From: Candidatus Kuenenia stuttgartensis
Lineage (GTDB): Bacteria > Planctomycetota > Phycisphaerae > Phycisphaerales > SM1A02
Assembly: GCA_945902075.1 (NCBI GenBank)
Contig: CAMDMA010000002.1
Location: 1 to 64,000, forward strand
DNA length: 64,000 nt
Direction of reading: 5' to 3'
This document shows positions 38,121 to 59,159 of the stretch, piece by piece. Under the pieces are notes generated by a model, which worked only from the letters and a program-made list of their open reading frames with translations, was not told the DNA's origin and made no database searches. The stretch's first letter is position 1; every line of letters begins with the position of its first letter. The translations under genes were made by a program, and so were the position numbers.

Positions 38121-39437
38121 ATGACCAGTCGTCGCCCGCTCGTTGTGATCCTTCTCGCATTGCTCGCGGCCCTTGTGTGCGGACGCCTGTCGTCGGCTGA
38201 GAAAATGCTGACACCAAAGTGGCTTCTCTGGCAGGAGCCCGTGGTTGTCGATGGAACCGTGCTCTCGATCGAGAAGAAACCGGGACCGCACGCGGGATCG
38301 AGTATTTGGCACCGCGTTCGCATCGATCGTATCGCGCGTGGTGTCGGACTCAAAGTTGGCGAAGAAGTCGCGGTTATCTCGCGAATCTACACCACACCGC
38401 CCGGAACGGCGGGGACAAGCGGCCACCGAGGCGTGTGGGGCGGGCCAAACGGCTTACCGACCAAAGGTGACCGCGCGCGTATTTTTGCGAGCGGCAACGC
38501 GCAGCTCCTGCAGCCACATTTTACGAACGGCTGGCAGCCGATCGAACCGAGCATCGCGTTCGTCGCCGCAGATGACGAGTATCGCAGCGAACTTACGATG
38601 CCATTTCTCGCTGAAATCACAGCGAAAGCGCTCGCTGCAACGACCACCATCCATCTCGCTACCGATGGCGCACCCAGCGGCGGACCAAACGAGTTGCCGA
38701 AGGTCAACGCGAAGACCCATCTCACTGGCTCAACGGGGCTGCGCTGGTCTGCCGACGCGATCGTCGCCTACATGCGCTTCGAACAACTGGATCGCTCGAC
38801 CCTCGAAGATTTCCTCACGCCACTTGAAGGCGGTGTCCCACTCGTGGCGTTTCGTACGACAACACATGCGTTCGCCTACCCCGCAGACTCCCCGCATGCG
38901 ATGCTGAACAACAGTTTCGGCGAGAAGTTTCTCGGTACACCTTGGCGCTTTCACCACGGGCATGCATCGAAAACGCGCATTCTCCCACCCGATTCAGAGA
39001 GCGCAAAGCATCCGGTACTCGCTGGCGTGATGATTCCCGCAGAGGGAATCGTTGTCCCGAGTTGGCTCTACCACGTCGAGCCGCTCGCCGCCGATTGCAC
39101 CGTGCTCCTTTGGGGCGAGGCAATCGACAGCGATCGGAAAGATGCCCCACAGAAGCAACCGATACTTTGGGTACGCGAACGCGCGGTAGATGCACGAAGC
39201 GGGCGCCGGGCGACGGAGAAATCCGCACCAGCAACAAGCCCAGCAAGCGGCCCCGCACCGAGACCGCAACGGATCGCGGTGTCAACGCTTGGACACCCCG
39301 GCAACTTCGCGAATCCCGAAGTCCGAATGATCGCCGTGCAAATGATCGCGTGGGCCGTCGCCTTTGACCGTGCACTCCAGTCGGACGAGTGTGCCGAGAT
39401 CCGCGCCGCGACGTTTTCCCCGCCTTCGATCCGGTGA
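38121..39437 (+). CDS. Exported ThuA-like domain protein
   Basis: A 438-residue protein with a signal peptide (VVILLALLAALVCGRLSSAEK). The second half has ThuA/class-I-glutamine-amidotransferase-like features: PLEGGVPLVAFRTTTHAFAY, FGEKFLGTPWRFHHGHASK and HPVLAGV, which correspond to the GGGLVxxHxATHAF...FxGHPxxH pattern of ThuA-like proteins found mainly in planctomycetes. The first ~150 residues look like a separate beta-rich domain (VVVDGTVLSIEKKPGPHAGS). An Arg/Ala/Pro-rich linker near residue 370 precedes the end. The function of these ThuA-like proteins is unknown. Followed 47 bases later by hmgA. Confidence 0.72.
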   Translation: MTSRRPLVVILLALLAALVCGRLSSAEKMLTPKWLLWQEPVVVDGTVLSIEKKPGPHAGSSIWHRVRIDRIARGVGLKVGEEVAVISRIYTTPPGTAGTSGHRGVWGGPNGLPTKGDRARIFASGNAQLLQPHFTNGWQPIEPSIAFVAADDEYRSELTMPFLAEITAKALAATTTIHLATDGAPSGGPNELPKVNAKTHLTGSTGLRWSADAIVAYMRFEQLDRSTLEDFLTPLEGGVPLVAFRTTTHAFAYPADSPHAMLNNSFGEKFLGTPWRFHHGHASKTRILPPDSESAKHPVLAGVMIPAEGIVVPSWLYHVEPLAADCTVLLWGEAIDSDRKDAPQKQPILWVRERAVDARSGRRATEKSAPATSPASGPAPRPQRIAVSTLGHPGNFANPEVRMIAVQMIAWAVAFDRALQSDECAEIRAATFSPPSIR

Positions 39438-39484
39438 ATCCCCCCGTTCCGCGGGTACAATCGCCGCCTCCCCGGAACACCTCC

Positions 39485-40852
39485 ATGCCCTACTACACCA
39501 AGCTCGGCAAGATTCCTTCGAAGCGCCACATTCAGTTCCGTCGCCCTGACGGTCGGCTGTACTCCGAAGAAGTCTTCGGAACCGAAGGCTTCTCCGGCCC
39601 CACTTCGACGCTCTACCACGTTCATCCGCCCACACAGGTGATCGGATGGAAACCGCTGTATTCAACCAAGGTCGAATACGTGGAGCGCGAGATCATGCGC
39701 ATGCGACACGTGAAGAGCATGCCGATGCCTGCGAAGGGCGACGCTGTCACCGGTCGGACGGTGCTCTTTGGAAACAGCGACGTGGAGATCGGCGTCTGCG
39801 CACCAGCTGAGCCGATGGCATACCACTTCAAAAATGCCTCTGCCGACGAGTGCTTCTTCATCCACTTCGGCTCCGGCACGGTGTTCACGATGTTCGGCGC
39901 GCTCAAGTTTGGACCGAAGGACTACATCGTGATTCCGAAGGGAACGATCTACCGATTCGTGTTCGACGCAACGAAGGACGGCGAGCCTGAGCCGCGATTT
40001 CTTCTCGTGGAGAGCGTCAACGGATCGCACATCCTTCCACCACCGCGCTACATGTCGAAGAAGACCGCGCAGTTTCTTGAGCACGCGCCCTACTGTGAAC
40101 GCGATCTGAGGCTTCCCGAGATGCCGATGACCTTCGACAAAAAGGGCTCGTTCGAAGTCCGTATCAAGAGCCGCGATCAGGTGCATTCATACATGTACAA
40201 CTATCACCCACTCGACGTCGTCGGCTGGGACGGTTGCTACTACCCATATTGCTTCAATATCGATGACTTCAGTCCGATCGTCGGCAAGCACCACATGCCA
40301 CCGCCGACGCATCAAACCTTCGAAGCGCACAACTTTGTGATCTGTTCGTTCTGCCCACGCCCGCTGGACTTCCATCCGCAGGCGATCGTGGTGCCTTACA
40401 ACCACTCGAATCTTGATTCCGATGAAGTGCTCTATTACGTCGAAGGAAACTACAAGGCTCGCAAGGGAATTGAAGAAGGTTCGCTGTCGTTGCATCCGCA
40501 GGGCATCGCCCACGGTCCGCACCCGGGCACGCCGGAAGCGACCATCGGCGCGACACACACCAATGAACTCGCGGTGATGTGCGATACCTTCGCGCCGTTG
40601 TATCCCACGAAGGCCGCACTCGCCTTTGATGACCTCAACTATCCGCAGAGTTGGGTTTCGGGTTGGACGCCCGAAGAGAGCACTGCCCCAGCCGAAACGA
40701 ACGGGAAGAGTAAGAAGGCCGCAAGCGGAGGGAAGTCCTCCAAGAAACCGTCGCGCGTGGTGGAAGCAAAGACCAGCGCGACGAGTGGTGCTGCGTCGAG
40801 AAAGAAGACCTCCTCCCGAGCAGTTGGCGCGAAGAACGCAAATACGTGGTGA
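39485..40852 (+). CDS. hmgA: Homogentisate 1,2-dioxygenase with added basic tail
   Basis: A 455-residue enzyme opening the homogentisate ring to maleylacetoacetate. Its cupin iron-site region has VVPYNHSNLDSDEVLYYVEGNY and SLHPQGIAHGPHPG, holding the His, Glu and His ligands, and the N-terminal part RPDGRLYSEEVFGTEGFSGP is the family start. The catalytic part ends near residue 395 (PQSWVSGW). About 58 further residues are very rich in Lys, Ser and Ala (KSKKAASGGKSSKKPSR and so on), resembling a histone-H1-like tail that standard HmgA lacks. Start at ATG 39485. Pathway partners in the window are hppD and fahA; maleylacetoacetate isomerase is not seen. Confidence 0.94.
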   Translation: MPYYTKLGKIPSKRHIQFRRPDGRLYSEEVFGTEGFSGPTSTLYHVHPPTQVIGWKPLYSTKVEYVEREIMRMRHVKSMPMPAKGDAVTGRTVLFGNSDVEIGVCAPAEPMAYHFKNASADECFFIHFGSGTVFTMFGALKFGPKDYIVIPKGTIYRFVFDATKDGEPEPRFLLVESVNGSHILPPPRYMSKKTAQFLEHAPYCERDLRLPEMPMTFDKKGSFEVRIKSRDQVHSYMYNYHPLDVVGWDGCYYPYCFNIDDFSPIVGKHHMPPPTHQTFEAHNFVICSFCPRPLDFHPQAIVVPYNHSNLDSDEVLYYVEGNYKARKGIEEGSLSLHPQGIAHGPHPGTPEATIGATHTNELAVMCDTFAPLYPTKAALAFDDLNYPQSWVSGWTPEESTAPAETNGKSKKAASGGKSSKKPSRVVEAKTSATSGAASRKKTSSRAVGAKNANTW

Positions 40853-43425: not shown

Positions 43426-44754
43426 CTAGCGCGCCGCGAGCAGCACGCCACGGCACTCGCCGAAACCGATACGTGGGTACCCGGGCCGCTCGCAGTAGCC
43501 TCGCATCACCACCTCATCGCCGTCCTGCAGGAATTTTCGCTCCGTACCGTCACCCAACATGATCGGCTCGGCACCGCGCCAGGTGCGTTCCAGAAGGCAT
43601 CCACGCGAATCTTTCGTCGCGCCAGAAACAGTCCCAGAAGCAAGCAAGTCGCCGGTTGCCATGTTGCATCCGTTGCTCGCATGGTGCGTGAGCATCTGCG
43701 CAGGCGTCCAAAACATGTCGCGGAACGATCCACGCGAGACAAGCGTTGGCGCGATTCCCTTGTCGCGCATCGCGGCGCTCTCGATGAACACCTCGAGCGT
43801 GATGTCGATGTTTCGATCCGCGGGATTCGTCAAGTACGGCAGTGGCTGCGGATCATCAACTCCGCGCGCGGGCCCAGGCACCATGAACGGCGCGAGTGCC
43901 TCGGTGGTAACAACCCACGGAGAGACCGTGGTGCCAAAATTCTTCGACAGAAACGGCCCGAGCGGCTGGTACTCCCACTTCTGAATATCACGCGCGGACC
44001 AATCGTTGACCAAGACGAATCCGAAAATGTGTTTCCACGCGTCCTTGATATCGATGGTTGTTCCGAGAGCGTTCCCCTTGGCCACGAAAAAACCGACCTC
44101 GAGTTCGTAGTCGATCAGTTTCGCCGGGCCAAAGGACGGCGGACCATCGTCAGACGCGACCGTCTGCCCATGCGGGCGCACGACAGGAGTGCCCGAAGGC
44201 ACGATCGAACTTGCGCGACCGTGATACCCAATCGGGATGTGCTTCCAGTTGGGAAGTAGCGGATTCGTCGGTCGAAACATAGAACCGACGTTGGTCGCAT
44301 GATGGAGCGACGCATAGAAGTCGGTGTAGTCACCGATGCGGAAAGGGACACACGGAACACACTTCGCGACCGGTCGAAGTACGCGTTCGATGCGCGCACG
44401 TTCAGGTGAATCCTCCGCAAGAAGCCACGCGAGATGCCCACGCAAGCGACTCCGAACGAGCGCAGGAAGCACGGCGATGTCGCCCACATTTTCGCCGTGG
44501 ACGATTGCGATTTCAACTTCGATGCGTGCATCGCGATCACCACCAGCAATCGCGTCGAGATCGAGCGCGCCAGAGTCAAGCGCGTCTGAGAGCGTCAGCA
44601 CCATGTCACCAATACGAACTGCGACTTGTTCGTCGACCATCCCGAATGGAAGATTTTGAATCGGAAAATCGCCCAAACTATCGTTCGCCGAGGCGACGAA
44701 CGAACGCAGGGTTGGCAGTCCGGCGTCAAGGACGCGGTCGTTTGGCGAACTCAT
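43426..44754 (-). CDS. fahA: Fumarylacetoacetase
   Basis: A 442-residue hydrolase releasing fumarate and acetoacetate in the last step of tyrosine breakdown. Typical blocks are LPFGMVDEQVAVRIGD at the N-terminus, FYASLHHATNVGSMFRP, IGYHGRASSIVPSGTPVVRP, PSFGPAKLIDYELEVGFFVAKGN, FGFVLVNDWSARDIQKWEYQPLG and KNFGTTVSPWVVTTEALAPF, covering the metal site (Asp/Glu) and catalytic His in LHHATNVG. Its ATG overlaps the stop of the unknown gene upstream (ATGA), so the two are made together. Confidence 0.95.
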   Translation of the reverse strand: MSSPNDRVLDAGLPTLRSFVASANDSLGDFPIQNLPFGMVDEQVAVRIGDMVLTLSDALDSGALDLDAIAGGDRDARIEVEIAIVHGENVGDIAVLPALVRSRLRGHLAWLLAEDSPERARIERVLRPVAKCVPCVPFRIGDYTDFYASLHHATNVGSMFRPTNPLLPNWKHIPIGYHGRASSIVPSGTPVVRPHGQTVASDDGPPSFGPAKLIDYELEVGFFVAKGNALGTTIDIKDAWKHIFGFVLVNDWSARDIQKWEYQPLGPFLSKNFGTTVSPWVVTTEALAPFMVPGPARGVDDPQPLPYLTNPADRNIDITLEVFIESAAMRDKGIAPTLVSRGSFRDMFWTPAQMLTHHASNGCNMATGDLLASGTVSGATKDSRGCLLERTWRGAEPIMLGDGTERKFLQDGDEVVMRGYCERPGYPRIGFGECRGVLLAAR

Positions 44755-45695
44755 GGCGCGATCTCCTCGGTGGTGGCAAGAAGGCCAAGCGCACGGAGTT
44801 CGGCAATTGGCTCGTCAAACGAACACGACCCGAAACTATGAGCGAAGCGTTCACGCGCGACAGCGATGTCTTCGAAGCGCAGAAAACGCTTGCGCCAAGT
44901 GAGCCCGGTTGGCCCGAAGTCGAATGCTGCCACGCGTTCTTCAACAAGAATTTGCTCAAGTTCGCTCTCGGTCATTGATTCGTTGTGCCAAAGCATGCAG
45001 CCAGCAACAAAGACGTTGAGAAACCCAAACTGCATGCAGCCCACATCCGTCGCCAGATGTCGGCAGGGATGGTGAAGGCCGGCGGTGGCCTTAAAGGGAA
45101 CCTCCGCCGCGCGACAAACCTTGAGAAAGCGCGCCACCTGCTCAGGCGTTGGGTGGGCGTCTGGGGTCAAGCCGCCGGTACGAATCTTGGCGCCGGCGTC
45201 GAGTGATGCCATCGCCGTCACGAGTCCACGGGGGTCGATGTCGGCGGGAATCTCGAAGTATGCAAAAATCTCATCTGGCACGTACTCCAGTGCGCGGTCG
45301 ATTTCTTTCGGTTCCGTCGCCTTGGTTTCGATGGTGTCGACAACTGCTCGGCCAACAACCCTGGAAAACTCCCGATCATCCATACGCTCGTTGAAACTCG
45401 CGATGCGCTCTAGATCGGCAACGATCTGCCGATCAGACGCGGGCGCGACCAGCACCGACAGAGGCCACGGCTCGTCACCCTCAACGTCAGCCGTCTTTGG
45501 AAGAAACGGATCAGCCTCGCGCACGAAATCGGGAAAACCAGTGATAGGGATAATCAAGCGTGCGAGCATCGCCTGATCCGGGGATCGGCGATAGCGAGCG
45601 TAATTGGCGACGGTCGACCGCATGTCGAGCCGCGCGGGCGGAAACAGCCCTGCGTAATCAACAACGGAATCAAGAAGAAGGCGGACGGCGTGCAT
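44751..45695 (-). CDS. Unknown protein translationally coupled to fumarylacetoacetase
   Basis: A 314-residue cytoplasmic protein with a GGAG ribosome site. No family is recognised. Features: MHAVRLLLDSVVDYAGLFPP at the N-terminus, FAYFEIPADIDPRGLVTAMA, AKIRTGGLTPDAHPTPEQVA, then VPFKATAGLHHPCRHLATD in the middle, and LNVFVAGCMLWHNES. Alternating beta-alpha segments (AKIRTGG, VPFKATAGLHH) suggest a TIM-barrel-like fold with conserved Lys and His residues. It is immediately upstream of, and overlaps, fahA. The pathway lacks a visible maleylacetoacetate isomerase, so a role in that step or in handling its product is a reasonable guess but unproven. Confidence 0.6.
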   Translation of the reverse strand: MHAVRLLLDSVVDYAGLFPPARLDMRSTVANYARYRRSPDQAMLARLIIPITGFPDFVREADPFLPKTADVEGDEPWPLSVLVAPASDRQIVADLERIASFNERMDDREFSRVVGRAVVDTIETKATEPKEIDRALEYVPDEIFAYFEIPADIDPRGLVTAMASLDAGAKIRTGGLTPDAHPTPEQVARFLKVCRAAEVPFKATAGLHHPCRHLATDVGCMQFGFLNVFVAGCMLWHNESMTESELEQILVEERVAAFDFGPTGLTWRKRFLRFEDIAVARERFAHSFGSCSFDEPIAELRALGLLATTEEIAP

Positions 45696-45888: not shown

Positions 45889-48393
45889 TTGATCGGCGAA
45901 TTCCTGAACCGGGCTCTTTCTGCATGGACTACTGCGTGGACTACTGCATGGACTACTGCATGGATGACTGCATGGATGACTGCATGGGTGACTGCACGTG
46001 CTTCTGCCTTTCGAGTCAACCTTGAATGGGTCGGCAAGTTTGTTTTTATGCTGCTTTGCCGCGCGAACAGTCATGCACGCAGCCATGCCCGCGTCCTTCG
46101 CACTGCAACCGCTCTCGCTCTCGCGACCACTATCGCAACCACTATCGCAACCACTTCCGTGCATGCTCAGGATGAGGCACCCCCCGAAGGATCTGCCGGG
46201 GTCGCCGCCGCCCCCACCAAGCTTGCGATCGCTGTACCGCAGGTGACGGCGCTTCCCGCAATCATTGAGAAGGCAAAGGGCTACGGACAGCAGAATGAAC
46301 TCGCGCAGGTTGTCGAGGGTCTTGATGCTAAGTTCGGCGACGCGTTAATGAACAGCCGCAAGTTCGATGTGCGCGCACACGCTGAACTCAAACGGATCAT
46401 CGGCGATCAGCAGGCACAGGATTCCGGCAACTACGATCTGTCTGACCCATCGCGCGCGAAGCCCTTCAAACTCGCAGGGATTCCCTATCTCGCGCTCGTC
46501 CAGATCGATGACTTTCAAGATCAAGTGCAGAGCGCGAACTTCGAGGGGGTCGGAACCAAGGCCACGCGACGGCAGATCCGCCTCAGCGCAACCTGCCGAA
46601 TTTTTGACACGACCCGCGGTACCACGCTTGAATCAACCCGACTGACACTGAGCGATTTCGATTTCAAGAACAATCCTCAGTTTGTGGTCGACCAGAAAGG
46701 TGGCGACCTGACCGAAGGTGTCGTCAATGTCATCGCCGATCGCATGGCGAACGAACTCGCGCGCCGCGTCACTGATGTGATCTTTCCTGCGAAGATCCTC
46801 GTTGTACGCGAGAGCGTTGTGACGCTCAATCGTGGCGATGGAACGGGAATCGCCGTCGGCGAAATCTGGGAGGTATCGGCAACTGGCGAAGACCTCATCG
46901 ATCCAGATACCGGCGAGAACCTCGGAAGCGAGGAAGTTGACGTTGGATTCGTGCGGGTAATTTCCGTTGCGCCGAAGTTTTCACGCGCGGAGATTTGCGG
47001 CGCCAATCGTGGTATTGCCAAGGGCTGCATCGTCCGAAAGACAGCGCGCACATCATGTGAATCCGCGGTTCCGGCACAGATGTACTCCCCCTTGATTGAA
47101 CTTGCCGAGGAGCGACTGCTCCGTGAGTCCGGCGCCTTCGCATCATCCGATGAACGAGACGCTGCCCCCCCATTGCCGAACCCCCAGCGCACTCCGACCG
47201 ACGGGCCACCAGTACCGCCAGTGTCGCCAGGGCCGCCAGGGCCGCCAGGGTCGAATCCCGAGACTGATCCTGCCACGGGCAGCGCCACAACTGCGCCAAC
47301 CCCGATTGCTGCGATCTTTATCAAGAATCGCGAGAAGCGCATCGACGACAACAAGGTCATGGTGCTTGAGGATTACCTCGTCGCGGCTCTCGATGGAACA
47401 TGCTTCACGACGATGAGCCGCGAAGATTCGATCAACGCCGTTGCTCGCTTCGCCCGCCAAGGGGCGAATGCGGGAGTCGATGGTGATCCGCTCAAGGATC
47501 TCGATCGTGTGCTTTCGAACGACACTTCTGCGGTTCAACTCGCACAATCGATGGGGGCCGACTACGTGCTCGTGGCTTCGATTACAGCGCTCAGCGTTGA
47601 TCGACGAAAGCTGAACGATCCCACCCGCGGCGTACAGACTGATGTGGAGTCGTTTCGCCTCGACGCAACCTACAGGATCCTCGGTCGTGCGGAGGGTCGC
47701 GTTATCGCGTCGGGTTCCGCGAGTGCGACCGAATCGATTCGACACAGTCCAGAGTTGCAAATCGAACGCGATGTTGTCGCCGACTTGCTGCGGAACTCTG
47801 CTGAAAAAATGGCGACCGCCATGCGGAAGCGCTGCGCGACTTCTCCGCTGCCGCCGCCGGACCAGTTGGAGCAGGTTGTCTTTGAAATCATCGGAACGCC
47901 CGCAGACCTCGCGGTGCCGGATATCGTGAAAAACGACCAAGGAAACTGGGTTGTGACTTCGGGTTCCTACACCTTGGAGCCGACAAGTTTCATGATTGAG
48001 ATTGATGGCGTTGTCGTAGCGTCGTACCCAAACCCTGCCAAAACCTCGAAGGGGCTTCACAAGATCCGCGTCACCCGCCCGGGATATGAGCCCTACCAAG
48101 GAATCATCAACGTGCAGCCGGGTATCGGTCGCCTTGTCATTCCCATGCGAATGACGACCGAAGAGATTGTTCGCTGGCAACAGATGTCCGCATTCTTTCA
48201 GCAGCTCAAGCGCGAACAGCAACTCACCGCCGCAGAAGCTGATGTACTCGCGGGCTATGCAGAGTTTTTGAGGAATTCGAAGGTCTCCATTCAGTATTCC
48301 GAGGAAACTAAGAGCGATGTGAAAGTCGACACCACTGAGGCGCCAGTGTTTGAGAACAATAGTTTTTGGCATGAAATTCGTGCTCCCCGATAA
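45889..48393 (+). CDS. Exported CsgG/curli-assembly-like protein with PEGA domain
   Basis: An 834-residue protein. A GGAGGTG ribosome site precedes TTG 45889. The first 65 residues include six W-[TMV]-TA repeats encoded by 12-bp units; a conventional signal peptide (RTATALALATTIATTIATT, cleavage near SVHAQ) begins only at about residue 70, so ATG 46048 is a possible alternative start. The body has a CsgG-like pattern twice: KLAIAVPQVTAL...MNSRKFDVRAHAELKRII, then LVQIDDFQDQ, and later IAAIFIKNREKRIDDNKVMV and MGADYVLVASITAL. A PEGA-like block (SFMIEIDGVVVASYPNPAKTSKGLHKIRVTRPGYE) follows, then a coiled C-terminus. First gene of a four-gene exported-protein set. Confidence 0.72.
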   Translation: MIGEFLNRALSAWTTAWTTAWTTAWMTAWMTAWVTARASAFRVNLEWVGKFVFMLLCRANSHARSHARVLRTATALALATTIATTIATTSVHAQDEAPPEGSAGVAAAPTKLAIAVPQVTALPAIIEKAKGYGQQNELAQVVEGLDAKFGDALMNSRKFDVRAHAELKRIIGDQQAQDSGNYDLSDPSRAKPFKLAGIPYLALVQIDDFQDQVQSANFEGVGTKATRRQIRLSATCRIFDTTRGTTLESTRLTLSDFDFKNNPQFVVDQKGGDLTEGVVNVIADRMANELARRVTDVIFPAKILVVRESVVTLNRGDGTGIAVGEIWEVSATGEDLIDPDTGENLGSEEVDVGFVRVISVAPKFSRAEICGANRGIAKGCIVRKTARTSCESAVPAQMYSPLIELAEERLLRESGAFASSDERDAAPPLPNPQRTPTDGPPVPPVSPGPPGPPGSNPETDPATGSATTAPTPIAAIFIKNREKRIDDNKVMVLEDYLVAALDGTCFTTMSREDSINAVARFARQGANAGVDGDPLKDLDRVLSNDTSAVQLAQSMGADYVLVASITALSVDRRKLNDPTRGVQTDVESFRLDATYRILGRAEGRVIASGSASATESIRHSPELQIERDVVADLLRNSAEKMATAMRKRCATSPLPPPDQLEQVVFEIIGTPADLAVPDIVKNDQGNWVVTSGSYTLEPTSFMIEIDGVVVASYPNPAKTSKGLHKIRVTRPGYEPYQGIINVQPGIGRLVIPMRMTTEEIVRWQQMSAFFQQLKREQQLTAAEADVLAGYAEFLRNSKVSIQYSEETKSDVKVDTTEAPVFENNSFWHEIRAPR
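45922..45998 (+). repeat. 12-bp tandem repeat in CsgG-like gene leader
   Basis: Six units of gcatggactact / gcatggatgact type. In the coding frame they give Ala-Trp-[TM]-Thr repeats; in the +1 frame Cys-Met-Asp-[YD] repeats; on the other strand His-Pro-Cys-Ser-like repeats. Confidence 0.95.
46123..46158 (+). repeat. 12-bp tandem repeat in CsgG-like signal peptide
   Basis: Three copies of gc[ga]accactatc (last copy ends cttcc) encode Ala-Thr-Thr-Ile inside the hydrophobic core of the signal peptide. Confidence 0.9.
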
Positions 48394-48543
48394 CACCTGA
48401 TGGAGCAAGGTATGACCACATCGATCGTCGTCTCTCGTGCGACGTGCAAAACCGACTCTCGTTGCCTGCGAGCGTTTTCGCTGCCGGTCTTTTCGCGACG
48501 AGGAGTCGCCGACCTCACTCGACACCTATGCAGCCACGCGGTG

Positions 48544-49983
48544 ATGCATACCTGCTTCCCGCTTGCTCTCGCGCCCGCTTTTCTGCTCGCTCTCCTGGTT
48601 GTAGCAGCGCCGCTTGTTGGCTGTTCACATCAAGACCGGATGAAGCCCATCATCAACTTCTACGAAATGGGCGATTACGCCGCCGCATCCAAGGAGATCG
48701 TGCCGCTCCTGAAAGATCGCCGTGACAGCGAGAAAGACCGGACTATCTACGAACTTGAGGCGGGCGCAATCTATGCGGCCTCAGGTGAACTCGCGTTGTC
48801 TATTCAATCGTTCGGTCATGCCGACGAACGCATGTGGAAGTACCTCGACGAAGAACCGGAAGTCCGCATCAGTGAGCAAGCTGCTGCAATTCTCACCAAC
48901 CAGACGGTCGTCACCTACCGGGGCCGCGCGCACGATCGCATCATGTGTACGACCTACCAGGCCCTCAACCAGCTTGCAGAGGGGAATCTTGAGTCTGCAG
49001 GCGTTTCGCTCCGACGAGCGTATGAATGGCAGCGGGATGCGGTTGAAAACAATGCGAAGGAAATCGAGGCACTCGAAGCCAAGAGCAAGGCTGCTTCTGA
49101 GGAGAAGTCGTATGACGCCCAGGCTGCGCTTGATGATGAGGGCGTCAAAACCGGGCTCGAATCTGAGTACGGACCGATTCGCGAAATGAAGGGCTACGCG
49201 GAGTTTGCCATCCCATACTCCACCTACCTTCAGGCACTTCAACACCAACTCACTGGGCGCGCGGATGCGCTAGCGCAAGCGACCGTTGAGTTTCGCCGTG
49301 TGGCAGGAATGCTGAGCGAAACCGACCGAATCTACGCCGAAGCGGATGCTCAACTTGCGGAGGCAGCGGCAACGGGTGCACCGATACCACCGATGGTTTA
49401 TGTGTTTTTTGAGACCGGCATGGCTCCGTGGCTGAAGGAGTTTCGGCTCGACATCCCACTCTTTATGCGTCAGGTGCCTTATGTCGGCGCGGCGTTTCCG
49501 GTACTCAAGTTCAACGAAGGCGCGGTGACCGGATTTACAGTCCGCGCAGGTACCCAGAGTTACGCTTCGAGTCTGCTTACCGATATGGATCGGGTGATCG
49601 CGGATGACTTCAACCGCCGATTACCAGCAATCATCACGCTCACGATCGTCTCGAGTGCGACCAAAGCCATCGCAACATACTTCGCTCAACAAGCGGCGTA
49701 TCAGCAAAATCCGAACGCTGCAATCTTCGTCGCGATCGCGGCAGCGGCGTATCAAATCGGTACCAACAGCGCTGATCTTCGGACCTGGCTCACCCTGCCA
49801 AAGCAGGTTCTGTATGCGCGATTCCCTGCGCCCAACGAGGGAACAATTGAGATCGATCTTGGGGATGGTCAGAAAATTGGACCACTTGCTGTGGAATCGA
49901 AAGGTGCGACCATCGTCCACCTGCGTTTGCCGAAGGCGGGCGTGCAGACCGCTGTCCGATCCATGCGAATCCCACTTGAATAG
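48544..49983 (+). CDS. COG3014-like lipoprotein
   Basis: A 479-residue lipoprotein: signal LALAPAFLLALLVVAAPLVGC-SHQ gives a clear lipobox. After the Cys comes a TPR-like helical region (FYEMGDYAAASKEIVPLLKD and FGHADERMWKYLDEEP), ALNQLAEGNLESAGVSLRRA, then a Glu/Lys coiled segment and a beta-rich end (AIFVAIAAAAYQIGTNSADLRTW, FPAPNEGTIEIDLGDGQ). This overall plan matches the COG3014 lipoproteins that accompany YcfL and LpoB genes in proteobacteria. An AAGG ribosome site precedes ATG 48412, which would add a 44-residue N-extension; the signal peptide argues for 48544. Second gene of the exported set. Confidence 0.7.
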   Translation: MHTCFPLALAPAFLLALLVVAAPLVGCSHQDRMKPIINFYEMGDYAAASKEIVPLLKDRRDSEKDRTIYELEAGAIYAASGELALSIQSFGHADERMWKYLDEEPEVRISEQAAAILTNQTVVTYRGRAHDRIMCTTYQALNQLAEGNLESAGVSLRRAYEWQRDAVENNAKEIEALEAKSKAASEEKSYDAQAALDDEGVKTGLESEYGPIREMKGYAEFAIPYSTYLQALQHQLTGRADALAQATVEFRRVAGMLSETDRIYAEADAQLAEAAATGAPIPPMVYVFFETGMAPWLKEFRLDIPLFMRQVPYVGAAFPVLKFNEGAVTGFTVRAGTQSYASSLLTDMDRVIADDFNRRLPAIITLTIVSSATKAIATYFAQQAAYQQNPNAAIFVAIAAAAYQIGTNSADLRTWLTLPKQVLYARFPAPNEGTIEIDLGDGQKIGPLAVESKGATIVHLRLPKAGVQTAVRSMRIPLE

Positions 49984-50061
49984 CGTTTCCCGCAGAACTG
50001 AGCGGGACGATACTTTCCCGGCTGACGAATGCATATCTCGAAAAAGCAAGGTACTCCGATT

Positions 50062-50508
50062 ATGTACACCCCCACCGTCTCTGCGAGCTCGCTCCGCTTC
50101 CGATTGCTCAGCACCGCACTCCTACTCGCCGCCTCCGCTTTCAGCGGATGCAATACGGCCAATACGACGACGGCAAGTGGAAGCCCCAACCCGGATGGGA
50201 CGGTGCCCTACAAGCAGATCGTCACCAACGGTTGGTTGAATTACAAGGCGAACATCGTGTCCGTGCGCGAGGGCACTGTGAACGGCGACATGAAGCGTAT
50301 CGCAGTCGATGTGTACAGCGACCAATTGACCTCGCAGCGATTTAGTTATCGTTTCGACTGGTACGACGTTGCTGGCATGCCGGTGCCGAGTTCAACCGCG
50401 TCGCTCACCAGCGTCACCATCAAGCCCAAGGAAACGATCACGTTGACCGCCGTTGCTCCATCGCCTACTGCGGTGCAATGGCGGCTCACTTTCCTCGACC
50501 GCCAGTGA
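50062..50508 (+). CDS. YcfL/DUF1425-like lipoprotein
   Basis: A 148-residue lipoprotein with signal LLSTALLLAASAFSGC-NTA. The mature part has VPYKQIVTNGWLNYKANIVS, KRIAVDVYSDQLTSQRFSYRFDWYDVAGM, then TSVTIKPKETITLTAVAPSP, an immunoglobulin-like beta-sandwich pattern found in the YcfL/DUF1425 family. In enterobacteria ycfL lies directly upstream of lpoB, as here. AAGG lies 9 bases before the ATG. Third gene of the set. Confidence 0.75.
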   Translation: MYTPTVSASSLRFRLLSTALLLAASAFSGCNTANTTTASGSPNPDGTVPYKQIVTNGWLNYKANIVSVREGTVNGDMKRIAVDVYSDQLTSQRFSYRFDWYDVAGMPVPSSTASLTSVTIKPKETITLTAVAPSPTAVQWRLTFLDRQ

Positions 50509-50558
50509 TCGCACGGGGCTTTCGTTTCCAACTGCCACAACTTCCACAAACCGCTCCG

Positions 50559-51176
50559 ATGAAATCCATGCGCTGCACAATTTCCTCAACCGTTCTCGCG
50601 TCCGCCCTCGCCGTCACTGCACTCAGTGGCTGCCAAAAAGCCCAGTATGTTGATCCGAAAGGCAACGACCTTGTTGTCAACGCCGACCGGATGAATATTC
50701 AGGACTGGAGCCTGCTTGCCGATCAAACGGTGCAGAGCCTCATCACATCCGGTGCGCTCTCGCGCCTTCCCAACCAACCTGCCGGAATTTTGCTCAACCA
50801 ACCCATCAACACGACCACCCAGCAGTTTGACACCGACGCGATCATGAAGAAGATCCGCATCGCGCTGTTGAACTCTGGCCGATGCGAGGTGATCATGACT
50901 GCTGGTCCGGGAGGTCGCGCAGAAGATCCAATCGCCAAAGACGCACAGGGCCTGAAGGACTTTCAGTCTGGACGCGACAACCAGGTCAACCCGAACAACA
51001 TCCCCGACGCAACCCTCGTCGCAAAGCTCATCGAAGATCGCGCGCGATCGGGTAGCACGCGGCAAGTCGCGTACATCTTGCAGATGACGCTCACAAACAC
51101 CACCACGGGCCGTGCCGTCTGGGAGGGCGAGGCGCAAATCGTCAAGCAAGGCGAGCGATCGGGTGTCGGATTCTGA
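50559..51176 (+). CDS. LpoB-like penicillin-binding protein activator lipoprotein
   Basis: A 205-residue lipoprotein with signal VLASALAVTALSGC-QKAQ. The mature part has VDPKGNDLVVNADRMNIQDW, SLITSGALSRLPNQPAGILL and ILQMTLTNTTTGRAVWEGEAQIVKQG, the pattern of the LpoB family, whose enterobacterial member stimulates a bifunctional peptidoglycan synthase from the outer membrane. Located directly after the YcfL-like gene. An ATG at 50568 is an alternative start. Fourth gene of the set; its stop precedes the convergent lipoprotein gene by 137 bases. Confidence 0.78.
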   Translation: MKSMRCTISSTVLASALAVTALSGCQKAQYVDPKGNDLVVNADRMNIQDWSLLADQTVQSLITSGALSRLPNQPAGILLNQPINTTTQQFDTDAIMKKIRIALLNSGRCEVIMTAGPGGRAEDPIAKDAQGLKDFQSGRDNQVNPNNIPDATLVAKLIEDRARSGSTRQVAYILQMTLTNTTTGRAVWEGEAQIVKQGERSGVGF

Positions 51177-51313
51177 CCGACCTCCGGCACTCGTGAGACG
51201 CTTGCGTTTGCTTTGATCCTGCTCGCGGGAGGCTCACCAGCACGCTCGATTGAGATTGGTCGATTGCCGAGGTCGACCACCAACCTTCAGACGTCTTATC
51301 CAACGCCCGATCC

Positions 51314-52843
51314 TCATGGCGACTCGGATGCGGATGCGGCCGTATCCATCGACGGCTCCGCCACGCCACTTGGCGGGGTCTTTGGTGAAGGGGGTAAGAA
51401 CTGCGGTGGAAGCGGATTTTCAGTCTGCTCTGCAAGCCAACGGGCAAGAGGCAGCGGCAACGGGTGATCGCTCGCGAGTTCAACCAGCATCGCGAAGGCG
51501 GGCGTTGCATCCTTCGCCGTCCCGATGCGGTCGAGAGCCGCAATCCAACGGGCTTTCAACGGCTCATCAAGTGCGGCTTCCCACGCGCAGTACTCGGCGA
51601 GCGCTTCACCTTGAAGGATGACCGAACCGAAAACGGACTCCTGCCGCTGCGAAGGCAACGCCCAAAGCGCGTAGTACGGAGGGTTGTACGGTGCGTACCG
51701 ATACTTGCCTTCGTAAAATCCGCCTCTGAACTCGATGCGTCGAGTTTTCTCGTTCCAGACACCGTTGGTGAAGAATGGCTTTGCGCCAGTCTCAAGAAAA
51801 ACCTCAGCGTCGGTGACCTTGGGACGCTCCATCACACGGAAGCCAAACGGCGGTGGGAGTTCAAAGTTCCACTCGCCTTTCCTGATCTTTTCCTTTTCAC
51901 TCTCTGCGATCACTGGGGATGCAAGAATGATGTCGCGGTACTCTCGCGAGAGCTTCGTCCAAAGCACGAACTCGATGCCGAGTGGCACAAAGTCGCTTAA
52001 TTTCATCTCCTTCCGGCTTGGATCGAATCTGGACACAAGCCTCACGATCGCCGGCGTGAATACCTTTGCAGAGGCCCACTCGCGCTCGCGTCGCGAGATG
52101 TTGGCGTTCAAGGAAAGCATCTGCGCAGCGGCGAGCTCATCAGGGCTGAGCCAGCCTCGCTCCGCGAGCAAAATTGCGATCGGCTCGAAGAGTGAGAGGC
52201 GAAACGTCTCGTCGGCAGTGCGCGCGCCAAAGTCCTCCGGGGTTCGTGGCATCGCGCCAATACGCTGGGCTTGCGCCGCGGCTTGCATCCCCGAATACAT
52301 GAGATAAAGGTCGGATACGAGCGGAATCACTTCGCCATTCCACCAGGCTGCGAACTCTTCACGCGCAGGCGATTCCTTGATCTTCCGCAGTTCTACGAAG
52401 CGGCCGAACAGTCGCATCCAAAGGATGCCGCCCTCGACGCGTTCGCTCATGGCGACCCACTCCGAACGGCGATCCGCAAACTGCTCGTAGTAGGTGCGAG
52501 CACTGCCCAGCGTGCTATCTAGTCGGCCGATCGCGCCGCGATTCCCGATCTCTGATGGCAACGCACTGTCGGCAAACGTCCCGCTGAACTTCCTTCCAAG
52601 GTCGTTGTCCGACTCGCCTTCGGAGCCATAAACCGCGGCGACGGAGTCAAGACTCGCACGGTTGGTGTCATTGGTCGCAAACGTGCGTGACGCGGAGTCG
52701 CCACTCGCCGTGATTTCAACCTTGACTTTGCGATTTTGACACCCACCGGCGGCAAGGGCGATCACCGCCGAGAGCGTGAACGCTGATACGACTCGCGCGA
52801 TGAGCAAGGGATGTCGTGGATCGACGGAACAAGCGCTGCGCAT
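51314..52843 (-). CDS. Lipoprotein of unknown function
   Basis: A 509-residue lipoprotein with signal ARVVSAFTLSAVIALAAGGC-QNRK. The body is mostly helical, with TPEDFGARTADETFRLSLFE, AKVFTPAIVRLVSRFDPSRK, FVPLGIEFVLWTKLSREYRD and a WNEKTRRIEFRGGFYEGKYR strand pair. It ends in a Pro/Ser-rich tail. No family is recognised. The start at 52843 places the signal at the N-terminus; sequence upstream is not family-like. It converges with the LpoB-like gene and is divergent from the MFS gene. Confidence 0.6.
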   Translation of the reverse strand: MRSACSVDPRHPLLIARVVSAFTLSAVIALAAGGCQNRKVKVEITASGDSASRTFATNDTNRASLDSVAAVYGSEGESDNDLGRKFSGTFADSALPSEIGNRGAIGRLDSTLGSARTYYEQFADRRSEWVAMSERVEGGILWMRLFGRFVELRKIKESPAREEFAAWWNGEVIPLVSDLYLMYSGMQAAAQAQRIGAMPRTPEDFGARTADETFRLSLFEPIAILLAERGWLSPDELAAAQMLSLNANISRREREWASAKVFTPAIVRLVSRFDPSRKEMKLSDFVPLGIEFVLWTKLSREYRDIILASPVIAESEKEKIRKGEWNFELPPPFGFRVMERPKVTDAEVFLETGAKPFFTNGVWNEKTRRIEFRGGFYEGKYRYAPYNPPYYALWALPSQRQESVFGSVILQGEALAEYCAWEAALDEPLKARWIAALDRIGTAKDATPAFAMLVELASDHPLPLPLARWLAEQTENPLPPQFLPPSPKTPPSGVAEPSMDTAASASESP

Positions 52844-53006
52844 GCGCGCGATACTACCCGCATGATGCTCCCGTCCGCGCGACTTCCTGCCACATCGCCA
52901 GCCTTTGTGCTCGATGGCTCGCTTGATCGGCGACCGATGGAGTGATTCGTACGAATCGGGGAAACGTCCGCGCGTAGACCCGGTAGCCTGACAACTCGGC
53001 CCTCGC

Positions 53007-54335
53007 GTGACTACGACCCCAAAGCCATCCACGAATCGCGCATCAGCAGCACCCCGGCATGACCCGTTTGCCGCGATGCGCGAGCCCAATTATCGTTTCT
53101 TCGCCTTTGCCTTCGTCGCGTCGAGTATGGGACTGCAGATGCTCTCGACAGCGATCGGTTGGGAAGTCTACGAGCGCACAAAGGATCCGCTGATTCTCGG
53201 CGCGACCGGACTCGCACGTGCGCTTCCAGTGATCGCGCTGACGCTTCCTGCAGGGACCTTTGTCGATGGCGGAAACCGGAAGAAAATTCTCTCAGCCACA
53301 CAGTTTGGCTTTGGCTGCGTCGCGATTGCGCTGGCTCTTGCGAGCTTTCAACATGCACCGATCTGGATTTTCTTTGCATTGCTCCTCGCATCTGGGTGTG
53401 TTCGCAGCTTCAACGCCCCCTCGCGCGGCGCCTTGCTCCCCTCACTCTTACCGCCTGAACGCTTCGAGAACGCTGTCGCGTGGCAATCCGGCTTCTTCCA
53501 GTTCGCGGCAGTCGCCGGTCCACTCATCGCGGGCACTGTGATCGCGGCAGTTGGCGGCGCATGGCTGGTCTACTCACTGACGGCCGTCCTCTGCGCGGGA
53601 GCAGGCGTCGCTGCACTCTTCCTGAATCCACGACCTGTCATCCGTACCTCCGCTCCGCCAAGACTTCGTGACATGTTTCGTGGCGCTGAACACATCATTC
53701 GAGAGAAAACCATCCTTGGCGCGCTCACGCTCGACCTCTTAGCCGTGCTCTTTGGTGGCGCCACGGTGTTACTGCCGATTTACGCAACTGAGATTCTGCA
53801 CTGCGGTCCAATTGGGCTTGGCGCCCTCCGTGCCGCTCCCTTTGTTGGCGCATTTGCGATGGCGATCTGGCTCGCTGCGCGACCAACGTTCGGACATGCA
53901 GGACGCGCACTCTTCATGAGCGTCGCAGCCTTCGGCATCGCAATGATTGTCTTTGGCCTGAGCACATCGCTCTGGCTATCGCTAGCAGCGCTTGCCGTCA
54001 GCGGCGCCGTCGACAATGTCTCTGTTGTGATCCGTCACGTACTTGTCCAAATGAAAACTCCGGATGAGTTGCGTGGCCGAACGACTGCAGTCAATTCGGT
54101 TTTTATCGAGTGCTCAAACGAAGTCGGCGCGTTCGAATCCGGGCTCGTCGCGGCCTGGTTTGGGCCGGTCGTGTCCGTGGTCGCCGGCGGCTTTGGCACC
54201 CTTGGCGTGGTCGCGATTGTCGCCTTCGCCTTTCCGGCACTCCGGCGGATGAAACGACTGACTGAGACGAAAGAGGATGTTCGCCACGCTGAACTCGAGG
54301 AAGAAGAGCATCGAAGACTCGGCACCGAAGGGTGA
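53007..54335 (+). CDS. MFS transporter (EntS/TIGR00900-like)
   Basis: A 442-residue major facilitator. Twelve helices are readable; motif A-like loops are LPAGTFVDGGNRKKILSATQ and the exporter-type YNFDAPSRGALLPSLLP region (here SFNAPSRGALLPSLLPPERFENAVAW). This is the group containing the enterobactin exporter EntS and macrolide efflux proteins. GTG start at 53007, or ATG at 53076 (MREPNYRFFAFAF), which matches the family beginning better. A charged, Glu-rich tail follows the last helix. Substrate unknown. Confidence 0.85.
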   Translation: MTTTPKPSTNRASAAPRHDPFAAMREPNYRFFAFAFVASSMGLQMLSTAIGWEVYERTKDPLILGATGLARALPVIALTLPAGTFVDGGNRKKILSATQFGFGCVAIALALASFQHAPIWIFFALLLASGCVRSFNAPSRGALLPSLLPPERFENAVAWQSGFFQFAAVAGPLIAGTVIAAVGGAWLVYSLTAVLCAGAGVAALFLNPRPVIRTSAPPRLRDMFRGAEHIIREKTILGALTLDLLAVLFGGATVLLPIYATEILHCGPIGLGALRAAPFVGAFAMAIWLAARPTFGHAGRALFMSVAAFGIAMIVFGLSTSLWLSLAALAVSGAVDNVSVVIRHVLVQMKTPDELRGRTTAVNSVFIECSNEVGAFESGLVAAWFGPVVSVVAGGFGTLGVVAIVAFAFPALRRMKRLTETKEDVRHAELEEEEHRRLGTEG

Positions 54336-54711: not shown

Positions 54712-57700
54712 TCAATGAAAGTCGCGCGCACGTCCCATGCCAACCCTCCCCTCTTCGGAAAGAGCCGAACTGATATTGCGGCCCGCACAGACCAACAGAT
54801 GAGTAACGCCATGACGGCGTTCGACCTTTCCTCGAACACCGATGGCCGCGGCATGACGGACCTCTGCGCGAAGGCGCTCGTAGACCTTTGGTCGAAAGAT
54901 CAGATTGGCAACTCCGGTCTCGTCCTCGATCGTCATAAAAACAATCCCCTTGGCTGTGGATGGTCGCTGCCGGACAAGAACCAGACCCGCGAGAAAGACC
55001 ACACGGCCAACAGGAGTGCGATCCTCGTCGCGAAGAAACGCACAAGGAATCGCACGAGCGCGCTGCAGACGATGCCGAATGCATGCAATTGGGTGGCGCT
55101 TGAGCGAGACCCCTGTCGCCTCAAAATCTTGGGCGATTCCTGACAACTCTGCGACGGGAGGAAGATTCGATTCAATCTCCTCTGAACGCCCGCCTCCATC
55201 AACAACCAAGCTCGGCTGGCTACCCCGCTCAGATTGATGATCAGATTGATGTTGAGAGCTGAGCTCTTGCAGAGCTGTATCAATAGAAGGCGACGCATCC
55301 ATCCTCGACCACAGCGTGCGCCCACGATCTTTCAATGCGAGGATCTGCCACATTGCCTGCTGCCGATCGAGCCCCATGGATCGGAATGCATCGGCTGATG
55401 CGAGATGTCGCAACGTGACAGGTCGAATATTTGCCGCCTCGGCAAGATCGCACACACGACTGAATTTACCATGGCGCGCAACTGCCTCAACCACTCGATG
55501 TGCCTCCTCCGGGTCAAGTCCACGAATCATGCGAAGACCGAGGCGAATTGCAGGCTGTGATGGAACCGCAAAGCGATGTGATGCATCAGAATTCTTTACA
55601 GCAGACGAAGCTGGAACTCCGGATTGCGGTGGAAAAAAAGAGTCATGAGACGGCGGACACAATGGCTCTATACGAGAGTGCGGCGGATCGTCCTGCCGTG
55701 TTCGGGGATCGAACCACGCCAAACTACGACCGCGAGCGTGAAGTCGTTGTCGGTGCATTGCCTCATGCGATGAATACGATCGCTCACGCGAGGGATCTCC
55801 GAGCGGACACCATGCTGATGCATCCCCGTTCGCGGTAACCGCAACATTTGATGAAGCCAAACGCGTGCGCCAATGTTCGATCAAGCACTGGTCAGGCACT
55901 GTTGGAGAACGCACGTTGGCGTCCATACGAGTGTATTGAGCAGTGTGGCTATGAATGTCTTGAGGCACGTCAAACTGTTTGCACAGACTTTCGCTACTAC
56001 GACTCTCGTTCGGCTTCTCAAGATTTTCAGAAGCGTGCCACAAAAACTGTGGATACAACGACGCCACTGCTGAATTCGTCTGCGAGGTACTCGAGAGATT
56101 ATTCGCAAGATGATTTACAAGATCTTCTCCACGCTCAAGAGTCGAATCCCAACGTGAGCAATGCACATCAATGCCACGTACTGCCACGCCGTGATCTCGC
56201 GCATCGCGAATAAGTTGCGCCGGGGCATAGAACCCCATTGGTTGACTGTTGAGTAATGCCGCCGTAAAAGCCGCTGGATGGTGACGCTTGAGCCACGCGC
56301 TTGCATAGACAAGCAACGCGAAGCTCGCTGCATGCGACTCTGGAAATCCGTAGCCAGAAAAACCCTGAATCTGCTGGAAAACTTGTGTTGCAAAGGTTCG
56401 CGTGTAACCACGGGCGATCATGCCTGCCTCAAGTGCTACACCGAACTGCGCGATTCGATTTCCGCTCCGCTTCCAGGCCGCGATCGCGCGACGCAACTCA
56501 TCAGCCTGTCCAGGAGAAAACCCTGCAGCAACGACCGCAAGTTTCATGGCCTGCTCCTGAAACAGCGGAACTCCGAGCGTCTTACCGAGCACCTCACGAA
56601 TTGCCTCGTTGGGATACTCAATCGGCTCCTCGCCCGAACGTCGGCGAAGATACGGATGAACCATGTCGCCCTGGATCGGTCCCGGCCGCACGATCGCAAC
56701 TTCCACAACGAGATCGTAAAAACAACGAGGCCGAAGCCTTGGAAGCATCGACATCTGGGCACGCGACTCAATCTGAAAAACTCCAATCGTGTCGGCTCCA
56801 CACACCATGTCGTAGACCCGTTCATCTTCGGCAGGAATTGTGTGAAAGCGAAGTTGTTCTGGCATGACCGATGATGCCTGCTGTGTGGCATCGGCACCTG
56901 CCACAAAATGAATCGCTGCAGGCGTGATTTCTGGCTCGAACTGTGCGGGACTGATGGAGGCAAGATCACGGCGAACCGTCGGCGTGTCAGAAGCCGCTCG
57001 CCCATCGACTCCTGATGCGATCGCCATCCGATCCGCATTTACCAAATCAATAGTCTTGCGGATCGCTGTCAACATACCCAGTGAGAGAATGTCGATCTTC
57101 AACATCCCAAGTGCTTCAATGTCGTCTTTATCCCATTCAAGCACTGTTCTGTTCTGCATCGCAGCATTTTCGATTGGAACGGTCTCGGATAATGGCGCAC
57201 GGGAGAGAACGAAACCACCGACATGCTGTGATCGATGTCGCGGAAATCCGAGGATCTCACCGACGAGTTGGACGAGGCGACCAACCATTGGAGCCGAGGG
57301 ATCAAGTCCAGCCTCCCGCAGCCGCGCTCTCGTTTCCGGCTGTATTTCCTGAGAATTTTTATCCTCCTTCTTCGATGCACCAAGTGCTTCTGAGACATCG
57401 TCGCGCTGCGATATTCCTCCACCGGTCCAACGATCGATGCTTGTCGCAAGCTTCTCAATACAGTCTGGCGCAAAGCCAAGCACCTTTCCAACATCACGAA
57501 CGGCACTCTTACCTCGATAGCTGATGATCTCGGAAACCAGCGCAGCACGATGTCGCCCATATTTGCTGTAGATGTGCTGAATGACCTCTTCTCGTCGCTC
57601 GTGCTCGAAATCGATATCGATATCAGGAGGCTCATTTCGTTCGCGACTGACGAAGCGTTCGAAGAGAACATCGATCCGGTCTGGATCGACCGCAGTAATA

Positions 57701-58962: not shown

Positions 58963-59159
58963 GCGCCGACCTCGCTGAATCCCTGAACCAGAAACACAAT
59001 TGTTCTCACCATCAATTTGTCCTCCGACACAGTTCGTGAAATCGGACGATGGCGCACGCGATGCCTCGACCGAAGACGAAGTATTTTGCTTCATGATCTG
59101 TGATGCTCCCTCTGCATGCATTTCCTCATCATGACAATCGATGTCGCAAGAGTTGTCGC

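Follow-up and report, generated by a model that had tools for sequence, protein, structure and literature searches.

In Escherichia coli, ycfL and lpoB lie in a hinT-ycfL-lpoB-thiK-nagZ locus, and LpoB and PBP1b are cell-wall factors (PMC3060616). LpoB and the UB2H docking domain have been described as occurring only in enterobacteria and as having co-evolved recently, based on a stringent cut-off of 100 bits (Typas et al., 2010, PMC3060616). The YcfL family is still listed in Pfam as being 'of unknown function'. A longer operon with the order COG3014-YcfL-LpoB-DUF6844-CsgG/FlgT-like occurs in Gammaproteobacteria, Thermodesulfobacteriota, Myxococcota, and Campylobacterota. Among the open-access papers on the product names YcfL or LpoB, none bears, going by titles and abstracts, on a COG3014-YcfL-LpoB operon, and we found no open-access paper that joins three of FlgT, LpoB, CsgG, and TolB. 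The term 'COG3014' was also not found in the open-access literature searched.

We analysed a window of 64,000 nucleotides of planctomycete DNA. An earlier note on this DNA had proposed that four consecutive exported proteins are encoded at 45889-51176. The open reading frames are present at these coordinates and the export signals can be read from the sequence. The four genes are consecutive on one strand and isolated from their neighbours, a divergent gene at 44751-45695 (– strand) and a convergent gene at 51314-53089 (– strand). The features of the locus are as follows:

45889..48393, + strand: gene 1, exported CsgG/FlgT-like protein (open reading frame, listed as 834 aa)
48400..49983, + strand: gene 2, COG3014-like predicted lipoprotein (homology to Aeromonas and Azospirillum proteins)
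50029..50508, + strand: gene 3, YcfL-like DUF1425 predicted lipoprotein (PF07233)
50478..51176, + strand: gene 4, LpoB-family predicted lipoprotein with a short linker (PF13036)
51192..51206, + strand: weak terminator-like stem-loop just past gene 4, from a pattern scan only, in which such sites were barely commoner than in shuffled sequence

The listed reading frames start further upstream than the signal peptides indicate. Judged by the signal peptides, the likely starts of genes 1 to 4 are at 46048, 48544, 50062, and 50559, which gives proteins of 781 aa for gene 1 and 479 aa for gene 2. Lipobox cysteines are present in genes 2, 3, and 4, so that these are predicted to be lipoproteins, and the signal peptide of gene 1 is of the ordinary kind, with no lipobox cysteine. 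Towards its 5' end, the reading frame of gene 1 contains a 12-bp tandem repeat of about six copies (45920-45996) that reads as a WTTA-type peptide repeat. The repeat precedes the likely start (46048) and is probably untranslated. Elsewhere in the window, the reading frames at 39389-40852 (+ strand) and 43426-44754 (– strand) read as a homogentisate 1,2-dioxygenase-like and a fumarylacetoacetase-like protein, which suggests that putative tyrosine breakdown genes lie beside the operon. A 1501-aa reading frame at 54712-59217 (– strand) resembles, by reading, a DnaE-type (error-prone) DNA polymerase III alpha subunit.

Genes 3 and 4 have the same order as ycfL and lpoB in E. coli, and share with that pair the DUF1425 and LpoB families, the lipobox, and the LpoB core residues. 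Gene 3, which adjoins the LpoB gene, scored 64.5 bits against PF07233 (cut-off 28.3) and has a solved relative, 3o0l (E = 1.4e-6). Gene 4 scored 66.5 bits against PF13036 (cut-off 22.3) and is the sole match to this profile in the genome. Against the NCBI equivalog for LpoB, TIGR02722, it scored 86.6 bits, below the cut-off of 110.55, and a sequence search with gene 4 against solved structures gave no match. When aligned, gene 4 and E. coli LpoB share the lipobox G-C as well as columns of invariant D, N, T, G, and W. The two proteins differ in the linker, which is longer and Pro-rich in E. coli. The Pro-rich insert is absent from gene 4 in the alignment, and there are 51 residues between the lipobox cysteine and the anchor column as compared with 82 in E. 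coli LpoB.

Unlike the window, the E. coli locus has no COG3014 gene. We take gene 2 to be a putative COG3014 protein, a label that follows the homology of its neighbours; no matching model was found among the profile libraries searched. A translated search of plasmid records with gene 2 matched two proteobacteria, Aeromonas and Azospirillum, and none of these records carries a COG3014 annotation for the relatives. Gene 2 aligns over its full length with the proteins encoded before ycfL-lpoB in Aeromonas caviae and Azospirillum, and the three proteins have in common the lipobox G-C and an invariant ADxRxW motif. In Azospirillum the relative is followed by genes annotated as YcfL and LpoB. In Aeromonas it lies between hinT and YcfL-LpoB, and a reading frame that reads as thiK-like follows LpoB. 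The Aeromonas locus is thus the E. coli hinT-ycfL-lpoB-thiK locus plus one extra gene, and this gene precedes the ycfL-lpoB pair as it does in the window. A model of the gene 2 family (pLDDT 88.6) has an N-terminal TPR-like arm and a C-terminal alpha/beta domain. Foldseek with the whole model matched TPR proteins for the most part, all of them above E = 0.001, and found nothing for the C-terminal domain. TPR arms usually bind partner proteins, so the arm of this protein fits a scaffold. With genes 3 and 4 above their Pfam cut-offs and gene 2 placed by homology to the gene preceding ycfL-lpoB, the families proposed in the earlier note for these three proteins are borne out.

To survey the set more widely, species genomes were scanned with the gene 2 family and the best 80 of 202 relatives were kept. 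Profiles built in this analysis for COG3014, YcfL, and LpoB were then used on the loci. Because the survey is anchored on COG3014 and covers the best 80 relatives of a planctomycete query, its counts are no unbiased census. In nearly all of these loci the triad was on one strand in the order COG3014-YcfL-LpoB. There was enough downstream sequence at 76 loci; LpoB was found at 73 of these, YcfL at 66, and both at 65. A CsgG/FlgT-like gene was on the same strand within 5 kb at 57 of the 76 loci and was not found near the other 19, which include Aeromonas as well as the close relatives L060-L062. A DUF6844 gene was also present at 19 of the 76. The triad in its fixed order was seen in seven phyla: Planctomycetota, Lentisphaerota, Chlorobiota, Thermodesulfobacteriota, Myxococcota, Campylobacterota, and Pseudomonadota. 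Within the class of the window organism, gene 2 was present in 38 of 150 genomes. This class is probably Phycisphaerae, since loci belonging to it are identical to records named as Phycisphaerae (L063 and L078; L059 and L105). When loci were fetched by LpoB alone from 199 Planctomycetota, COG3014 adjoined LpoB in 19 of the best 20. A chance cluster of four genes was rejected because this order recurs in dozens of loci across the phyla. The COG3014 tree, whose reading is limited by several long branches, sorts by phylum (seven changes, compared with a minimum of six and a mean of 27 after shuffling). This grouping speaks for old vertical descent more than for recent transfer. Together, the profile matches of genes 3 and 4, the homology of gene 2, and the recurring order support the idea that the window carries the proteobacterial companion set intact, and that this set is old and envelope-associated. 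The order of the triad is not absolute, since LpoB lies before COG3014 rather than behind it in three planctomycete loci (L007, L014, and L015).

The commonest order was COG3014-YcfL-LpoB-(DUF6844)-CsgG/FlgT-like. A DUF6844 gene follows LpoB and precedes the CsgG/FlgT-like gene at, for example, L119:10581-12227 and L023:6845-8191; the L119 product carries an N-terminal GYF_2 domain as well. The window shares its families and triad order with this operon, but has no DUF6844 gene and has a CsgG/FlgT-like gene that is doubled and comes first. The CsgG/FlgT-like gene also precedes COG3014 in closer kin of the window (L054, L056, L057, L058, and L070). The earlier note had pointed to a large protein at the head of the set. 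Such a protein is not peculiar to this lineage: a CsgG/FlgT-like gene commonly belongs to the set and normally lies downstream of LpoB.

The head protein had also been called a CsgG/PEGA protein. By sequence profile this was not confirmed: gene 1 scored 20.6 bits against CsgG (PF03783), just below the Pfam cut-off of 20.8, and 16.9 bits against PEGA, also below a cut-off of 20.8. It scored 18.8 bits against FlgT_M (cut-off 31.2), and a profile search of the genome with PF03783 gave no match at E = 1e-3. Relatives at four loci (L063, L065, L066, and L068) do exceed the PF03783 cut-off. The CsgG part of the name stands for the fold. In a structure model of low confidence (mean pLDDT 65.5), the 781-aa protein has two CsgG/TolB-fold domains, at residues 56-245 and 416-600; an SH3-like stretch follows the first, PEGA-like strands follow the second, and the parts also include a Pro-rich linker. 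The top Foldseek matches of this model were the LPHT ring (8z5n, E = 9e-13) and FlgT (3w1e, E = 2e-12), followed by CsgG (E = 1e-5). In VIA, residues 58-335 of the model aligned with chain residues 98-356 of FlgT 3w1e at Z = 13.8, with an rmsd of 12.0 that reflects a different placement of the two parts, and CsgG aligned at Z of about 11-12. The second domain matched TolB (Z = 12) and LpoB (4q6l, Z = 10.6, 21% identity). Gene 1 thus has the CsgG/TolB-like fold and the following SH3-like fold that form the middle and C-terminal part of FlgT, but differs from FlgT in that the domain is doubled, the N-terminal part of FlgT is unmatched, and the FlgT_M score is below the cut-off. With the CsgG curli exporter it shares the domain fold and a weak profile match, but it is below the curated cut-off, has no lipobox, and is doubled. 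On the model, gene 1 is a predicted doubled CsgG/TolB-fold protein closer in fold to FlgT than to CsgG; 'CsgG-like' is correct for the fold, and by profile it is not a CsgG. Because its two halves are separate genes at loci L057 and L058, the gene 1 protein looks like a fusion.

Class A PBPs are, to our knowledge, the only known target of LpoB. The earlier note had linked the set to wall synthesis and had suggested looking for a bifunctional PBP elsewhere in the genome. A search with the class A glycosyltransferase profile PF00912 gave no match in the window genome, which is 97% complete, and did match in control genomes. This agrees with the absence of class A PBPs from Planctomyces (PMC8406291). 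The genome does encode two SEDS proteins and two class B PBPs, identified by the transpeptidase domain, with one pair adjacent on contig C11. Class A PBPs were also absent from two relatives of the same order (G095 and G034), both of which carry the triad and are nearly complete in one or two contigs. Among 199 Planctomycetota genomes, LpoB was found in 15 of 29 with a class A PBP and in 103 of 170 without; there is no association between the two (Fisher p = 0.42, kinship not corrected for). Class A PBPs were missing from 19 of 50 genomes that have COG3014 and, for the most part, the whole operon. The UB2H docking domain exceeded 70 bits in 18 of the 50, all of them Gammaproteobacteria. A link to wall synthesis through a bifunctional PBP is therefore not supported here. 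Because no class A PBP was found, and unlike in the E. coli PBP1b system, LpoB in the window organism cannot act by switching on PBP1b. The presence of an LpoB relative in a genome that lacks the known enzyme target of LpoB indicates that the family probably began with a job other than class A PBP activation. The occurrence of the LpoB family and its neighbours in seven phyla, including bacteria without class A PBPs, argues that the domain is much older than its partnership with PBP1b and UB2H; the data fit a partnership that was added onto the family.

A comparison of LpoB proteins points the same way. In the LpoBs of the operon, the median distance from the lipid anchor to a fixed domain column is 51 residues, as compared with 82 in E. 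coli, and the alignment places the extra length of the E. coli linker in the Pro-rich insert. Four Gammaproteobacteria (Oceanimonas, two Oceanisphaera, and an Enterobacteriaceae bin) encode a second LpoB beside the operon copy. This second gene follows hinT and precedes nagZ, and its product carries the Pro-rich linker as in E. coli; three of the four genomes also have thiK in between. All four genomes also encode UB2H PBPs. The simplest reading of these sequences is that the hinT-linked copy would be the PBP1b activator and that the operon copy does something else. E. coli LpoB is thus best seen as a later, specialized relative with a long Pro-rich linker, and the activator of PBP1b seems to have branched off later from the operon family. 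The E. coli LpoB branch in the tree is very long, which makes its placement unsure and leaves descent from the operon protein unproved.

We think it somewhat probable that the four genes represent the planctomycete form of an ancient operon shared across phyla, and that their products cooperate on the inner side of the outer membrane. The three predicted lipoproteins would be a TPR scaffold (COG3014), YcfL (DUF1425), and an LpoB-family protein with a TolB-like fold, and the fourth member would be exported without a lipid anchor and contain two CsgG/TolB-fold domains. The gene order suggests that the four proteins bind one another, and most likely they would make up a single assembly in the periplasm that is anchored to the outer membrane. 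Since CsgG and FlgT are ring proteins, this assembly would perhaps be ring-like as in these relatives, and it may scaffold or gate some envelope structure. A wider proposal, to which we give about an even chance, is that the module is an unrecognized ancient outer-membrane machine, present in at least seven phyla and independent of class A PBPs, and that the E. coli ycfL-lpoB pair is a reduced remnant exapted for PBP1b. If so, many proteins outside Gammaproteobacteria that carry the annotation 'penicillin-binding protein activator LpoB' would be misnamed.

LpoB could act on wall enzymes other than a class A PBP. The LpoB-like protein would then still regulate wall synthesis, through SEDS-class B PBP pairs (FtsW-FtsI or RodA-PBP2) or through wall hydrolases. 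The two SEDS proteins and two class B PBPs of the genome, with the adjacent pair on C11, and the role of LpoB and PBP1b as wall factors in E. coli are in line with this. However, no contact between LpoB and SEDS proteins was found in the literature consulted, a short linker makes a reach through the wall less likely, and the conserved neighbours are not wall enzymes, so that we regard this as unlikely. It seems more doubtful still that the set is an outer-membrane secretion or export machine with the CsgG-like protein as its pore, in the manner of curli export. Gene 1 does have CsgG among its best fold matches, but FlgT fits better, the lipobox is absent, the profile score is below the CsgG cut-off, and no recurring substrate gene is found among the neighbours.

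The closeness of gene 1 to FlgT and to the LPHT-ring chain raises the alternative of a flagellar accessory ring like the H ring that contains FlgT. Of 36 operon genomes tested, 31 have FlgI, and the window genome has it too. By contrast, FlgI is absent from the other five, which include Chlorobium sp. N1 and two Victivallales, and Chlorobium sp. N1 keeps its CsgG/FlgT-like gene beside the triad. The family of gene 1 is thus not strictly tied to flagellated genomes, and only residues 98-356 of FlgT align to it. Because operon genomes without FlgI exist, a flagellar role was rejected as the main reading, and we hold it to be very improbable. The reading that we prefer is that of an ancient module of outer-membrane lipoproteins.

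An LpoB family that extends beyond enterobacteria into genomes without class A PBPs gives a concrete case for testing how a PBP activator came to exist at the outer membrane, and the operon context gives a handle on YcfL. It also warns that the name of a PBP activator should not be transferred on a profile match alone. Some planctomycete genomes (e.g. G000:C64:671-1384) contain a second, weak match to FlgI (PF02119, 34-92 bits), beside or instead of a normal FlgI. These are long open frames of 540-736 aa and are perhaps an enlarged P-ring-like protein. One planctomycete genome of 12.3 Mb (G044) has eight matches to the LpoB profile, which suggests an expansion of the LpoB family or of CsgG-like relatives.
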